A DNA stretch of 24,359 nt from a virus: the IMG/VR virus record IMGVR_UViG_3300025889_000916, positions 1 to 24,359 of that record; one strand, given 5' to 3'. The position numbers and the translations under genes were made by a program. Positions 2,475-8,497 of this stretch are shown piece after piece. The notes under the pieces are model-generated. The model searched no databases. It was not told where the DNA came from and saw only the letters and a list, made by a program, of their open reading frames with translations. Position 1 is the stretch's first letter; each line of letters starts with the position of its first letter.

Positions 2475-4196
2475 ATGGCAGAAACTCTAGTATCTCCCGG
2501 TGTATTAGCAAGAGAAAATGATTCTTCTTTTGTAACCCAAGGCCCAGTAACCGTTGGTGCTGCTATCATAGGTCCAACAGTTAAAGGACCTGTAGAAATA
2601 CCAACAGTAGTTACTTCTTATAGTGATTATACATCTAAATTTGGAACTACATTAACAAGTGCAAGTAATGAATATACTTACTTTACTTCTATTGCAGCTT
2701 ACAACTATTTTAATAATGGTGGTGAATCACTATTAGTTTCTAGAGTAGTAAGTGGTTCTTTTACCTCAGCTACATCCTACAACTCAAATAACAACCCTGA
2801 AATTTCAGGTAGTGATAATACTGGAACTTTAGTGTTAAAAACAATCTCTGAAGGTGTTATCATGAATAGCTCTTCAAGCTTAGATAGTTCAGGTTCTTTA
2901 GAAAGTGGTTCTTCTGATAATATTAGATGGGAAATTTCAAACCCAAGTACTTCATCAGGTACATTTGATTTATTAGTTAGAAGAGGTGATGATAATACGA
3001 ATAATAGAATTGTATTAGAAACTTGGACTGGTTTATCATTAGATCCAAAATCAGATAATTATGTTGCTCGAGTAATTGGTGATCAAGTAGAAAACTTTAA
3101 TGGTAATACTAGTGATCCTCAAGTAACAATTACGGGTTCTTATAGAAATGCTTCTAGATACATTTATGTAAGTCAAGTATTAAGACCAACCCCTGATTAT
3201 TTTGATAATAATGGTATTGCAAAAACAATTTATACTGGTTATATTCCTGCAGCTCAAAGTGGTTCTTTTGGTAATGCTACTGGAGATGTAATTGGTGGAG
3301 CTAAATTCTATGATAATATTGAAGCTAATAATGCTCAAGGTATTGGCTCTTCAAGTTATGATGGAATGATTGCTTTATTATCAAATCAGGATGATTATGT
3401 TTATAATGCAATATTTGCTCCTGGTTTATATAACGAAGGACAAACATCACAATGTACTAACCTAATCAACAATACTCAGGTAAGAGGAGATGCTTTATTT
3501 GTATTAGATTTAGTAGATTATGGTTCATCAATTACAAATGCTGTTGGACAAGCTGCTTCAAGAAATACTTCATATGCTGCTTCATATTATCCATGGTTAC
3601 AAGTAATCGATCCTGATACAGGAGCTATGGTATGGGTCCCAGCATCAACAATGATTGCAGGAGTATATGCTTATAATGACGCTGTTTCAGAACCATGGTT
3701 TGCACCAGCGGGTATTAATAGAGGTGGTTTATCTCAAGTAATTAGAGCTGAAAGAAAATTATCTCAATCAAATAGAGATACCTTATATACAAATAAAGTA
3801 AACCCAATTGCAACATTCCCAGGAACTGGAGTTGTAGTATACGGACAGAAAACATTACAAACTAGAGCAAGTGCTTTAGATAGAGTAAATGTTAGAAGAT
3901 TATTGATTCAACTTAAATCATACATTTCTCAAGTTGCCCAAAACTTGGTATTTGAACAAAATACAATTGCTACAAGAAATAACTTCTTAGCACAAGTAAA
4001 TCCATATTTGGAAAGTGTTCAACAACGTCAAGGTTTGTATGCATTTAAAGTAATCATGGATGACACAAATAACACAGCTGATGTAATTGATAGAAATCAA
4101 TTAATTGGTCAGATTTATATCCAACCAACTAAAACAGCTGAATTTATTTACCTAGACTTTAATATTTTACCTACAGGTGCTACATTCCCTGCATAA
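2475..4196 (+). CDS. gp18: Tail sheath protein (T4 gp18-like)
   Basis: Forms the contractile outer cylinder of the tail. The N-terminus (SPGVLARENDSSFVTQGPVT) is the standard sheath opening, including the SPGV element that contributes to inter-subunit strand exchange. The conserved sheath core lies at about 330-573, containing WLQVIDPDTGAMVWVPAS, GINRGGLSQVIRAERKLS and a C-terminal beta region. At 573 residues it is somewhat shorter than T4 gp18 (659). A surface-type insertion at about 92-150 is rich in Ser/Asn/Gly; residues 131-148 contain 10 serines in 18. The tube gene follows directly and shares the same kind of leader, so both are probably highly expressed together and stopped by the terminator at 4756-4788. 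Confidence 0.96.
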   Translation: MAETLVSPGVLARENDSSFVTQGPVTVGAAIIGPTVKGPVEIPTVVTSYSDYTSKFGTTLTSASNEYTYFTSIAAYNYFNNGGESLLVSRVVSGSFTSATSYNSNNNPEISGSDNTGTLVLKTISEGVIMNSSSSLDSSGSLESGSSDNIRWEISNPSTSSGTFDLLVRRGDDNTNNRIVLETWTGLSLDPKSDNYVARVIGDQVENFNGNTSDPQVTITGSYRNASRYIYVSQVLRPTPDYFDNNGIAKTIYTGYIPAAQSGSFGNATGDVIGGAKFYDNIEANNAQGIGSSSYDGMIALLSNQDDYVYNAIFAPGLYNEGQTSQCTNLINNTQVRGDALFVLDLVDYGSSITNAVGQAASRNTSYAASYYPWLQVIDPDTGAMVWVPASTMIAGVYAYNDAVSEPWFAPAGINRGGLSQVIRAERKLSQSNRDTLYTNKVNPIATFPGTGVVVYGQKTLQTRASALDRVNVRRLLIQLKSYISQVAQNLVFEQNTIATRNNFLAQVNPYLESVQQRQGLYAFKVIMDDTNNTADVIDRNQLIGQIYIQPTKTAEFIYLDFNILPTGATFPA

Positions 4197-4246: not shown

Positions 4247-4735
4247 ATGGCAGTATTAGATCCAAACGAAATATTTTTCACGGCATTTGAGCCAAAACAA
4301 TCCAATAGATTTGTATTGTATATTGATGGTTTCCCTTCTTACTTACTTAAGCAAGTAGGTGCTGTTAGTGTATCACAAGGAGCTGTAGCTCTTAACCATA
4401 TTAACGTTCAACGTTATGTAAAAGGTAAAACAACTTGGGGAACAATTCAGTTTACATTATTTGACCCAATTACTCCTTCAGGTGCTCAAGCTGCCATTGA
4501 ATGGTTAAGATTACACCACGAATCAGTAACAGGTAGAGATGGTTATAGTGATTTCTATAAAAAAGATTTAACATTTAACGTATTAGGTCCTGTAGGTGAT
4601 ATTGTTTCTGAGTGGATAATTAAAGGTGCATTAATCACTGAAATTAACTGGGGTGATTATAACTGGGATGATGATGGTACTGCTGTTAACATCCAGGTAA
4701 CTGTACAACCAGATTACTGTGTATTAAACTTCTAA
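4247..4735 (+). CDS. gp19: Tail tube protein (T4 gp19-like)
   Basis: Builds the inner tail tube through which DNA passes. At 162 residues it is almost the same length as T4 gp19 (163). Typical features are FEPKQSNRFVLYIDGFPSYL at 14-33, a central loop region (HINVQRYVKGKTTWGTIQFT), an alpha-helical segment GAQAAIEWLRLHHESV, and a C-terminal beta hairpin with NWGDYNWDDDG followed by IQVTVQPDYCVL. Its place directly after the sheath is the canonical T4-type order. It is followed by a strong terminator, consistent with separate control of the low-copy proteins encoded downstream. Confidence 0.96.
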   Translation: MAVLDPNEIFFTAFEPKQSNRFVLYIDGFPSYLLKQVGAVSVSQGAVALNHINVQRYVKGKTTWGTIQFTLFDPITPSGAQAAIEWLRLHHESVTGRDGYSDFYKKDLTFNVLGPVGDIVSEWIIKGALITEINWGDYNWDDDGTAVNIQVTVQPDYCVLNF

Positions 4736-4755: not shown

Positions 4756-4788
4756 AAAGAGAGCTTGGCTTTGTCAAGCTCTTTTTTT
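4756..4788 (+). terminator. Rho-independent terminator after sheath-tube unit
   Basis: AGAGCTTG (4760-4767) pairs with CAAGCTCT (4775-4782) around a 7-base loop, and the stem can extend through a G-T and A-T pairs. A run of seven T follows (4782-4788). It lies 20 bases after the tube stop codon and would end the high-level sheath/tube transcript. Confidence 0.88.
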
Positions 4789-4832: not shown

Positions 4833-5579
4833 ATGGCCGAATTTAAATTCCCTACTGAACAAGTAGAATTACCTTCTAAAGGTTTAGTTTATTCTAAAGA
4901 CAATCCTCTGTCTTCTGGAGTCATTGAGATGAAATATATGACTGCAAAAGAAGAAGATATCCTCACTAATCAGAATTATATTAAAGATGGTACTGTTGTT
5001 GATAGACTATTAAAGTCATTAATAATGAGTAAAATTAACTATGATGATTTAGTTGTTGGAGATAAAAATGCTATTATGATAGCAGCTCGTGTTTTAGGAT
5101 ATGGTAAGGATTATTCATTTGAATATGAAAACGAAACTATTACAGTTGATCTTTCAGAACTAGAACAACGTTTCATTGATGAAGAAGCATTACTTGAAAA
5201 ACATGTAAATCTGTTTAAATATGTTTTACCTCATTCAAAAAATGAAATTACTTTTAAATTATTAAATACTAAAGACGAAACAGCAATTAAATCTGAAGTT
5301 AAAGGTTTACAAAAACTTGATAAAAAATCATCTCCAGAATTATCTACTCGTTTAAAACATATGATTCAATCTATAAATGGTGATGATGATTCAAAAACTA
5401 TTAGAGATTTTGTAGATAATTATATGTTAGCTAGAGATTCTAGAGCCCTTAGAGAATACATTAGGAACTTCCAACCAGATATTAATTTATCATTTACGCA
5501 CGTGAGTAGTGACGGCAACGAAAGGGAACTTGCCCTTCCGATGACCGTCAGCTTTTTTTGGCCTGACAGCGACCTATAG
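4833..5579 (+). CDS. gp26: gp26-like baseplate/tail assembly chaperone, short form
   Basis: Belongs to the T4 gp26-type baseplate hub/assembly family: the N-terminus has FPTEQVELPSKGLVYSKDNP followed by EMKYMTAKEEDILTNQNYIK, and the 0-frame C-terminus ends in FFWPDSDL. The 248-residue product is mostly alpha-helical after residue 100 and highly charged. It lies between the tube and tape-measure genes, the position used by tail assembly chaperones in long-tailed phages. Codons 241-242 (TTT TTT) sit in a run of seven T at 5553-5559. The adjacent reading frame continues with a well-formed domain to 5859, so a frameshift product of about 341-342 residues is likely (see 5560-5859). Homology to gp26 is fairly sure; the chaperone role is inferred from position and layout. 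Confidence 0.85.
   Translation: MAEFKFPTEQVELPSKGLVYSKDNPLSSGVIEMKYMTAKEEDILTNQNYIKDGTVVDRLLKSLIMSKINYDDLVVGDKNAIMIAARVLGYGKDYSFEYENETITVDLSELEQRFIDEEALLEKHVNLFKYVLPHSKNEITFKLLNTKDETAIKSEVKGLQKLDKKSSPELSTRLKHMIQSINGDDDSKTIRDFVDNYMLARDSRALREYIRNFQPDINLSFTHVSSDGNERELALPMTVSFFWPDSDL
5501..5570 (+). promoter_or_regulatory. Probable programmed frameshift signal: T7 slippery run in a GC-rich structured patch
   Basis: This 70-base patch has 38 G/C (54%), far above its AT-rich surroundings. It holds the T7 run (5553-5559) and several possible stems: TGACGG (5510-5515) with CCGTCA (5545-5550), enclosing AAGGG (5522-5526) with CCCTT (5533-5537). A competing stem, GTCAG (5547-5551) with CTGAC (5563-5567), brackets the slippery run. 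A +1 or -2 shift here joins the gp26-like frame to the downstream frame; a -1 shift would meet TGA at 5564-5566. Recoding is inferred. Confidence 0.6.
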
Positions 5580-5859
5580 AATAAATCTATTTACATCTAT
5601 CCATGAAATAGTATATTATGGAAATGGTGGATATGATTGGCATACTATTTATAATATGCCTATATGGTTGCGAAGATTTACTCACCAACAGATCCATGAA
5701 GCACGATCTGCAGAAGCTGAAGCTAATAAACAAGCTTCTAAAGGAAAAGGATCTAGTATAGATTTTGCGAAAGGTGCTAAACAAAATATTCCTAAACAAG
5801 CACTTAATCCAAAACTAAAGTCACCTCCTAATTATATTACGAAGGCATCAACAAAATGA
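5560..5859 (+). CDS. Frameshift-encoded C-terminal domain of the tail assembly chaperone (T-domain-like)
   Basis: This frame is open from 5545 (after TGA at 5542-5544) to the TGA at 5857. It has no ATG before 5656, yet the part before that ATG looks strongly protein-like: INLFTSIHEIVYYGNGGYDW, then NMPIWLRRFTHQQIHEARSA. That argues for translation by fusion to the upstream gene, not by starting at 5656. The first part resembles the compact second domain of frameshifted tail chaperones and of gp51-like proteins. The tail, about residues 70-99 of this segment, is basic and low in complexity. Joining at the T7 run gives about 341 residues for +1 and 342 for -2. Alternatives are independent translation of a 67-residue protein from ATG 5656, where the leader is AT-rich but has no ribosome binding site, or a single-base indel in the sequence. 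Confidence 0.68.
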   Translation, partial: GLTATYRINLFTSIHEIVYYGNGGYDWHTIYNMPIWLRRFTHQQIHEARSAEAEANKQASKGKGSSIDFAKGAKQNIPKQALNPKLKSPPNYITKASTK

Positions 5860-5866
5860 TGCCTTC
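5841..5866 (+). terminator. Perfect 10-bp hairpin overlapping the chaperone stop codon
   Basis: GAAGGCATCA (5841-5850) pairs perfectly with TGATGCCTTC (5857-5866) around a 6-base loop; the TGA stop is inside the 3' arm. What follows is TAATATTTATAAT and not a clean T run, so this may be a weak terminator, an RNA stability element or a processing site. It sits just before the late motif of the tape-measure gene. Confidence 0.5.
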
Positions 5867-5893: not shown

Positions 5894-8497
5894 ATGGCTG
5901 CTGACAAACAAGGAGTAAAAAATCAAAAAGATTTTAATAATGAGATGTCCAATAGTATATCTTTGGAACAGCAAATTATTGATCTTTTAAAAACCAGAAG
6001 AGGTATTGATTCTGGTATTCTTTCAGACCAGCAAGATATATCTAATGTCCTTCAAGATCAAGTTAGCCAACAGAAATTTTTAAATTCTGAAAAAAAACTC
6101 ACCAGAGATATCTCAAATCAGATAACAAAAGCTGCTACTGAAGCTTATTCTATTCAACAAGATGAATTAGGACTTACTTCAACTAACGCAAAGTTAAAAA
6201 AACAACAGGAAAGTCTAGAAAAAAATATCATTTTAGCAAAACAACAACAAGCTAAATTTGCTAAGATGGCTACTGAAGGTGATGCTAAAAGCAGAGAATT
6301 AAATGCAGCAATAGCTGAATCATTAGGGGAACAAGTAACCCAGGCACAAATTATACAAGCCGAAATGAAAAAGATTTCTAGAGAATCTAAATTAACCTCA
6401 GATTCTTTAGGGGTTAAAACTTTCGGCGGTCTATCAGATTTAGTAAAATCAGTCCCTGGTTTGAGCAGATTTAGTGGTCCTTTTCAGGAAGCTGCAGAGG
6501 CTGCTAGGAAACACGGTGCAGCTCAAGCAAAAATGCTTACTACCGGGAAAGGTTTAACTAAAGATAAAATAAAAGAATTAGGACTTACTAAAAAGTTAAC
6601 AGTTACAAATGCAGATGGTACAAAGAAAGTTTTAACAGGTAGAGCAGCTGCTGTTAAATTACAAAAAGAGGGTGTTAAATTAACGGGTACCATGGGTGCT
6701 GGTTTTAAAAGTTTAGGACCAGCTATTGCTAAAGCTTTTGGCCCTATGGCGTTAGCTGCGGCTGCACTGAATCAAATTATAAAAGCATTTGGTGCAGCAG
6801 ATAAAGCTGCTGGGGATTTAGCTAAAAGTCAAGGGATATCATATAATGAAGCAGCAGCATTTAATAAAGAAATAGCTGATTCCGGAGTAACTACCGGTAA
6901 ATTATTAACTACTACTAAAGATGTAGTAGCAGCTCAAATAGAATTAAATAAAGTATTTGGTACCTCAGTAAAATTTTCTAATGAATTTGCTGCTGAATTC
7001 TCTGAAATTCAAAAAACAACAGGTCTTTCAACTGAATCCATGAAGATGTTTGCTGAACAAGCAATGGTTGGTGGAACTTCAATTCAAGATCAATTAGTTC
7101 AAGTTACAGCTGTTACCCAAGAATTAAATAACCAAAATGGGGTTGCTTTCTCAGCTAAAAGTATACAGGAAGGATTAGCTAAAGCTTCTGCATCTCAGTT
7201 AATAACAGCTGGTAGAAATACTAAAGAATTAGCCAATCAAGTGTTCCAAGCTAAATTAGTTGGTTTAAATATGCAACAATTAGAAAGTGTTGGTCGAAGT
7301 ATGTTAGACTTTGAATCTTCTATAGCAGCAGAAATGGAAGCAGAGCTAATGACTGGGAAACAACTTAATCTTGAAAAAGCTAGAGAAGCTGCCCTTCAAG
7401 GAGATCTTGCCACCTTAGCTTCAGAAATGAGAAAAGAGGTAGGTACGGCTGCTGAATTTGGAGAAATGAACGTTCTTCAACAAGAAGCTTTAGCAAAAGC
7501 TTTTGGTATGCAACGTGAAGATATGGCAGCAATGTTATTAGAGAATGAAAAATTAGAAAAAGTTAAAGCTCAAGGATTTGAGTCTATGGATGACGCCCAA
7601 AAACAGTACAATGAAGCTGTAAAAAGTGGCAATATGAGTGAAGAATTAAAAAAGAAGTTAGCTGATGCTGGAGTATTAAAACAAATGGAATCTGTAACTC
7701 AGCAAGAAAAAATGGCTGCTATTACTGAAAAATTAACAGATTTATTTATTAAATTAGCTGATCCTCTTATTCCTGTAATTAGTAAAATTATGGAAATTGG
7801 ATCTGCTGTGATTACAACTGTTACTCCTGCTTTTCAAATGTTAGGAAAAATAATTGAAGGGTTAATGGTAGTTATTCAACCTATTGTAGATGCTTTTTTA
7901 ACTATATTCGATTTAGTTCAATCTATTTTTGATCCTACAAAATCTTTTGGAGATGTTTTAGCAGAAGCAGGTCCTATAGTTAGTGGATTAGCAGTAGCTT
8001 TTGGAGTTGTCGGAACTGCTTTAGTAGTAAGTATTGTTCCTTCAATGTACGCCGCAGCAGCATCAGCAGTAGGATATGCTATTTCAATGGCATCAGCAGC
8101 AATAGCAGCAGTTACAACAGCCTCTGCAGCTACCTTAGGTATTGGTATAGCAGCTGTAGTAGCAGGTATTGCAGCCGCAGCATATGCTTTTAATAACGCT
8201 AAAAAAGAAGCATCATCAGCTGGTGACATGATTTCTCCCGCAGATGGTAAAACAATGGTATCTACTAAAGAAGGAGGATTATTTTCACTTTCTCCTAATG
8301 ATGATCTTGTAGCAGGTCCTGGAGCAGCCCAAGCCATTAGTAATAGTGGAGGTGGGGGTAATAATGATGCTCAATTAATGGCTTTAAATACTAAAATGAG
8401 TCGATTAATAGCTCTTATAGAACAAGGAGGAAATGTATACATAGATTCTACTAAAGTAGGTACAGCAATGGCTGTAGGAAGTTACAAAGTTCAATAA
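5894..8497 (+). CDS. Tail tape measure protein (T4 gp29-like role)
   Basis: Sets tail length and is chaperoned during tube assembly. The 867-residue protein has an N-terminal coiled-coil region (about 20-165, rich in Q/K/E), a small hydrophobic segment at about 277-298, and a long helical middle rich in Ala/Gln/Glu. A strongly hydrophobic Ala/Val/Ile-rich region at about 695-770 could cross the host membrane during DNA injection. The C-terminus (SRLIALIEQGGNVYIDSTKV) resembles the ends of other phage tape measures. Length, composition and position directly after the putative chaperone pair and before the baseplate genes all support this. Sequence identity to T4 gp29 itself cannot be judged by eye. 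Confidence 0.88.
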   Translation: MAADKQGVKNQKDFNNEMSNSISLEQQIIDLLKTRRGIDSGILSDQQDISNVLQDQVSQQKFLNSEKKLTRDISNQITKAATEAYSIQQDELGLTSTNAKLKKQQESLEKNIILAKQQQAKFAKMATEGDAKSRELNAAIAESLGEQVTQAQIIQAEMKKISRESKLTSDSLGVKTFGGLSDLVKSVPGLSRFSGPFQEAAEAARKHGAAQAKMLTTGKGLTKDKIKELGLTKKLTVTNADGTKKVLTGRAAAVKLQKEGVKLTGTMGAGFKSLGPAIAKAFGPMALAAAALNQIIKAFGAADKAAGDLAKSQGISYNEAAAFNKEIADSGVTTGKLLTTTKDVVAAQIELNKVFGTSVKFSNEFAAEFSEIQKTTGLSTESMKMFAEQAMVGGTSIQDQLVQVTAVTQELNNQNGVAFSAKSIQEGLAKASASQLITAGRNTKELANQVFQAKLVGLNMQQLESVGRSMLDFESSIAAEMEAELMTGKQLNLEKAREAALQGDLATLASEMRKEVGTAAEFGEMNVLQQEALAKAFGMQREDMAAMLLENEKLEKVKAQGFESMDDAQKQYNEAVKSGNMSEELKKKLADAGVLKQMESVTQQEKMAAITEKLTDLFIKLADPLIPVISKIMEIGSAVITTVTPAFQMLGKIIEGLMVVIQPIVDAFLTIFDLVQSIFDPTKSFGDVLAEAGPIVSGLAVAFGVVGTALVVSIVPSMYAAAASAVGYAISMASAAIAAVTTASAATLGIGIAAVVAGIAAAAYAFNNAKKEASSAGDMISPADGKTMVSTKEGGLFSLSPNDDLVAGPGAAQAISNSGGGGNNDAQLMALNTKMSRLIALIEQGGNVYIDSTKVGTAMAVGSYKVQ

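Follow-up and report, generated by a model that had tools for sequence, protein, structure and literature searches.

The tail assembly chaperones G and GT of phage lambda, with their equivalents in HK97, P2 and Mu, are the closest described system. The gene lies between those of the tail tube and the tape measure, two reading frames overlap, a short and a long product are made, and the frame changes shortly before the first frame ends. Lambda shifts by −1 and Mu by −2. A 2016 review described this frameshifting as conserved in long-tailed phages except T4, and frameshifted tail chaperones include known +1 and −2 cases (PMC5009743). Going by its title and the citations to it, a study by Vladimirov et al. 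(Virology, 2022) names gp26 and gp51 as the tail chaperones of T4 and states that T4-like phages use another mechanism. A 2025 paper (PMC12846349) attributes poly-T −1 signals in the TAC-N genes of T4-like phages to the same study. In T4, gp26 and gp51 (PF12322, phrog_150) are encoded by separate, divergently oriented genes. A +1 shift is also used by Listeria PSA, very likely by the archaeal myovirus HSTV-2, and by bacterial RF2, whose site is CUU_U (PMC10885494); these share the direction with the locus described here, but their proteins or lineages differ.

We analysed a stretch of viral DNA of 24,359 nucleotides (IMG/VR record IMGVR_UViG_3300025889_000916), called the window here. An earlier note on it had proposed that a gp26-like tail chaperone is extended by a +1 (or −2) frameshift at a T-run, and comparative data from about 180 loci now bear this out. 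Our main reading, with a probability of about 0.8, is that positions 4833–5859 encode a T4-type tail assembly chaperone of the G/GT kind, made in two lengths by +1 ribosomal frameshifting at UUU_U. As far as the above sources reach, the assignment of gp26 and gp51 as T4 tail chaperones and the use of +1 by some phages are already published. The use of +1 across a T4-type lineage, the flips of direction within one family and the 5′ hairpin are new. A literature search, which covered the 2022 study by its title and citations, found no published account of the +1 lineage. The data put frameshifting, in an unusual direction, into the wider T4-type family, which was formerly held to be an exception.

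Layout of the locus

The features of the window that bear on this reading are as follows.

2475–4196: sheath gene (Pfam match)
4247–4735: tube gene (weak gp19 match)
4756–4786, + strand: terminator-like hairpin 5′ of the chaperone gene (hairpin call)
4833–5579, + strand: ORF1, the short product (TAC-N-like, 248 aa, gp26/gp51 family; phrog_150 match, AlphaFold model, Foldseek matches)
4833–5859, + strand: predicted long product of 341 aa, N and C domains joined by a +1 shift (TTTT taken as one step)
5510–5550, + strand: 5′ RNA hairpin, outer stem GACGG/CCGTC, 2–3 nt ahead of the T-run (−19 kcal/mol, covariation)
5545–5859, + strand: ORF2 frame (+1), the C-terminal domain (ORF2 conservation, helical AF2 domain, codon position differences)
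5553–5561, + strand: putative slip site TTT TTT TGG (codon conservation over 144 nonredundant sites)
5562–5567, + strand: CCT GAC, double-coded as Pro-Asp in frame 0 and Leu-Thr in frame +1 (codon bias against the rest of ORF1)
5564–5566, + strand: TGA in the −1 frame, closing any −1 shift immediately (−1 stop here in 72/75 sites of the first set)
5841–5866, + strand: terminator-like hairpin spanning the ORF2 end (hairpin call; weak because its T tail is short)
5894–8497: long ORF in the tape-measure position, without family match and named by position and size

ORF1 ends in a TAG at 5577–5579 and contains a T7 run at 5553–5559, and the two frames overlap at TTT TTT TGG CCT. The ORF2 frame is +1 relative to ORF1, or equivalently −2, and holds no ATG, GTG or TTG before 5656 in the window sequence. 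The coordinates previously given for the gp26-like frame with its stop, for the second frame lacking an early start and for the overlap at the T7 run all hold, as does the blocking of a −1 shift by the TGA at 5564, which leaves +1 or −2. The word TTTT occurs in frame once in the chaperone gene of the window. In both the window and phage immuto, the tube gene is followed by the chaperone gene and the tape-measure position lies directly downstream. The two terminator-like hairpins flank the chaperone gene and may separate its transcript from those of the tube and the tape measure.

Related loci

A tblastn search found the ORF1/ORF2 pair also in the phages immuto, Mel-JY01 and the 484-kb LR756508, and IMG/VR contributed 80 close relatives. 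Every locus of this first set with a detectable second ORF (84/84) carries ORF2 in the +1 frame. In an enlarged set of 200 loci, the best match of the ORF2 HMM lies in +1 in 178 and in −1 in 2, and the extension is in −1, without an ORF2 profile match, in 12 distant loci; these counts run over related and hence not independent sequences. On the sequence comparison, the +1 arrangement is far beyond chance. The lineage of the window looks like a seemingly abundant environmental T4-type lineage of uncultured phages.

Homopolymers are error-prone, and the second frame might in principle reflect a sequencing or assembly error at the T-run. This reading is already refuted, because 178 contigs and records agree in the frame relation, among them isolates and sites that are not homopolymers.

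Double coding at the T-run

Alignment of the homologues, which the earlier note had proposed as a check, shows that the overlap is conserved in 178 loci, with the 14-mer TTTTTTTGGCCTGA exact in 65 of the 75 nonredundant sites of the first set. Upstream of the T-run the +1 frame is often stopped (20/75 at one codon), and directly 3′ of it the +1 translation is almost always F-F-G-L-T. The Pro codon after the run is CCT in 73/75 sites against 37% elsewhere in ORF1, and the Asp codon is GAC in 70/70 Asp codons against 21%. These choices run against normal usage because the +1 frame requires Leu and Thr. Such codon choice shows that, directly past the T-run, both frames are in use as coding sequence. 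The nearest ORF1 stop lies 15 nt past the first TTT. The +1 stops ahead of the run, the nearly fixed +1 residues and forced codons behind it, and the closeness of the ORF1 stops therefore place the frame change at the T-run and not at the stop. A shift at CTA TAG near the stop, suggested earlier as an alternative, does not survive: ORF1 stop positions vary among loci, CTA TAG is not conserved, and the +1 constraint starts at the T-run.

The same evidence bears on the possibility that ORF2 is a separate gene whose translation begins at a non-standard codon or is coupled to the ORF1 stop. There are precedents, in that an internal product, 26′, is annotated for T4 gene 26, and in two loci, L194 and L199, ORF2 does start at its own ATG just past the ORF1 stop. 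However, the +1 coding constraint starts inside ORF1 right after the T-run, ahead of any coupled start. Neither stop positions nor starts are conserved, the first start in the ORF2 frame lying over 60 nt beyond the ORF1 stop in 36/144 sites, and a separate gene would leave the conserved slip motif without a reason. We consider this explanation very improbable for the family at large and retain a frame change within ORF1.

L194 and L199 are the only relatives with clearly separate genes, and both lack the slip codons, which are replaced by TTC TTG TAT and TTC CTT TGG CCA. Here ORF2 is a separate ORF (2223–2543 in L194, from 2223 onward in L199) with an ATG 2–5 nt past the ORF1 stop. These loci work as a natural control, since slip codons were lost where an own ATG was gained. 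In these two loci the long fusion protein may be absent altogether.

The putative slip codons

Over 144 nonredundant sites, codon 2 of the motif is TTT in 139, CTT in 4 and CTA in 1, and codon 3 has T as its first base in all 144. CTT TTT TGG is found at three further sites. Codon 1 had been favoured as a universal slip codon while it was TTT in 75/75 sites; it was dropped after 14 loci with TTC and 3 with CTT were found. Re-pairing in the P site from YUU_U to UUU is possible at every site except L003 (TTT CTA TTC), where codon 2 cannot re-pair and codon 1 (UUU_C) would be needed. The CUU_U of RF2 is also present among the sites of the window clade. RF2 is aided by a Shine-Dalgarno sequence and a stop codon, whereas here the site is a sense codon, accompanied in some clades by a 5′ hairpin.

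The ORF2 frame could also be reached by a −2 ribosomal shift at the T-run, for which Mu offers a precedent (PMC5009743). The P-site UUU could re-pair two bases back within T7, and the long product would gain one extra Phe. At TTC TTT T (14 loci), however, codon 2 would land on TCT, which tRNA-Phe cannot read, and at TTT CTT T re-pairing would be weaker for −2 than for +1, CUU_U being the site that RF2 uses for its +1 shift. With a 5′ hairpin behind it, the ribosome should also be hindered from moving backward. A −2 shift is thus quite unlikely, and +1 fits the sites better.

The base 5′ of the run is C or G in 130/144 sites. A T at this position would create the −1 heptamer T_TTT_TTT. We also considered a conserved Shine-Dalgarno stimulator and rejected it. 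There is an excess of GAG and GGG codons upstream, but some clades do not show it, and many of these codons form pairs inside hairpins.

Within ORF1 of the 178 loci, T follows TTT codons in 8.6% of cases and TTC codons in 10.8%, compared with a codon average of 19%. The rarity of TTT_T is not clear avoidance of slip sites, since TTC shows much the same.

The 5′ hairpin

Among 10 relatives in the window's subclade, 6 of the 15 pairs in the hairpin at 5510–5550 show compensatory changes, and its covariation score exceeds those of 500/500 shuffles and of all slid controls. Across 139 sites, the best hairpin adjoining the run has a mean of −7.0 kcal/mol, compared with −4.7 for shuffles of the same stretch (p 6e-6) and −1.9 at other places in ORF1 (p 1e-29). 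Part of this general signal is local composition, so that the hairpin is claimed firmly for the window's subclade only. Downstream RNA structure was little above controls. The 5′ hairpin probably favours the forward move.

A hairpin followed by a T-run also suggests that RNA polymerase drops one U there, and that normal translation of the shortened mRNA gives the long product. The layout is that of Roseiflexus IS630, in which a hairpin directly 5′ of a T-rich run accompanies a one-base deletion (PMC5009743). The covarying hairpin and the T7 or T8 present in 156/178 loci agree with such slippage. The IS630 case needs a slippable run, whereas 19 loci here are without one and keep ORF2 in +1 with T-runs of 3 (5 loci) or 4 (14 loci). 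These short runs read TTTCTTTGG in four loci, one of them the isolated phage immuto, and otherwise TTCTTTTGG (14 loci) or TTTCTATTC (L003). The use of a ribosomal −1 heptamer at the same place by distant relatives also argues against the polymerase. As the short-run loci keep +1, the ribosome is favoured as the general mechanism; polymerase slippage is unlikely in that role, and some of it may occur at T7.

Protein family and predicted structure

ORF1 matched phrog_150, labelled 'baseplate hub', in a profile search (E 2.3e-9, residues 4–243), and T4 gp26 and T4 gp51 both match the same family. A Pfam search with ORF1 gave no match to PF12322 at E 1, so the placement comes from phrog. The ORF1 and ORF2 halves were modelled apart. 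The AlphaFold (AF2) model of ORF1 has a pLDDT of 90.7, and a Foldseek search of BFVD with it identified the SP-15 baseplate hub subunit (E 2e-18) and gp26 of Aeromonas phage 25 (E 8e-4). ORF1 is a T4 gp26/gp51-family protein. Against the lambda-like systems, the fold match to HK97 gp13 is weak (2OB9, rank 42, E 4.3, TM 0.39 by target).

The ORF2 model is a small helical domain (pLDDT about 84–91 over residues 11–60) followed by a low-confidence tail, and a fold search with it returned nothing significant. Codon position differences in the +1 frame past the ORF1 stop are 0.48/0.38/0.58.

Pairs of CxxC cysteines are present in many relatives (SP-15, L003, L004 and the jumbo phages compared). The window clade lacks them, which would fit the loss of a zinc site.

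Distant relatives

The direction of the shift differs among distant members of the family. The frame continues in +1 in Listeria LIS04, Bacillus SP-15 and Streptococcus GXN1, and in −1, at T_TTT_TTC/T, in 121Q, RaK2, PA5oct, Atu_ph07, XaC1, RAS14, Vibrio 2.275 and LR756511. In the −1 relatives both the N and the C domain are homologous, and a T-run occupies the same position. The base that precedes the run is T in these relatives and mostly C or G in the +1 clade. A profile of 77 predicted fused products of the window clade aligned over its full length, both domains included, with the fused products of the distant relatives (hhalign E 4e-36, or E 2e-25 with the −1 group by itself). On the tree, the +1 label needs 2–3 changes, with some deep forks weak. 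The −1 group may be known already, since the 2022 study is credited with poly-T −1 signals. One protein family that flips direction offers a test bed for what determines +1 versus −1.

T4 gp51 appears to have its N and C parts in one frame, with an extra C-terminal part that resembles the long product. The distant fused set aligned with it across the C domain (Prob 95, E 2e-8). The window clade profile gave no significant match to T4 gp51 directly, and the fused product had no direct profile match to either T4 gp26 or gp51 alone. ORF1 is placed with T4 gp51 because the two are linked through phrog_150 and the distant relatives, not by a direct profile match. In T4 the chaperones come from two genes, whereas in the window one gene with a frame change would make both.

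The gene pair 106/107 of P-SSM2, the sole cyanophage candidate examined, was rejected because it is not of the gp26/gp51 chaperone family.

The putative shift site of GXN1 (L092) is UUC_UUU_CGU, with the end of ORF1 at about 2710–2750. Influenza PA-X has UUU_CGU as its +1 site, judging by the title of PMC3498833.

Proposed mechanism

We propose that most ribosomes would end at 5577 and release the short protein, and that a minority would move one base forward at UUU_UUU_UGG. The P-site tRNA on 5556–5558, the codon that we infer to slip, would re-pair on the overlapping UUU at 5557–5559. Translation would then run in the +1 frame to 5859 and append the helical C-terminal domain. On the lambda G/GT pattern, the short form may coat the tape-measure protein, and recruitment of tube subunits may fall to the long form, which would be the rarer of the two. 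For the window, the tryptic peptide across the junction would be ELALPMTVSFFGLTATYR after a +1 shift and ELALPMTVSFFFGLTATYR after a −2 shift.

More tentatively, and at odds a little short of even, the locus may represent a new type of bacterial +1 signal, in which a UUU_U slip site is combined with a hairpin immediately ahead of the slip codons, near the position of the Shine-Dalgarno helix in RF2. The chaperone family would then have switched among +1, −1, in-frame fusion, gene duplication and a separate start, and the base before the T-run would divide forward from backward slipping.

Annotation of the second part

Gene callers overlook the proposed frameshift, and the annotations of immuto and Mel-JY01 list the second part as a separate hypothetical protein. 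The public records of L001 (6839–6949), L002 (6737–6973) and L005 (6821–6940) annotate it in this way, with starts that lie within or upstream of the real domain.
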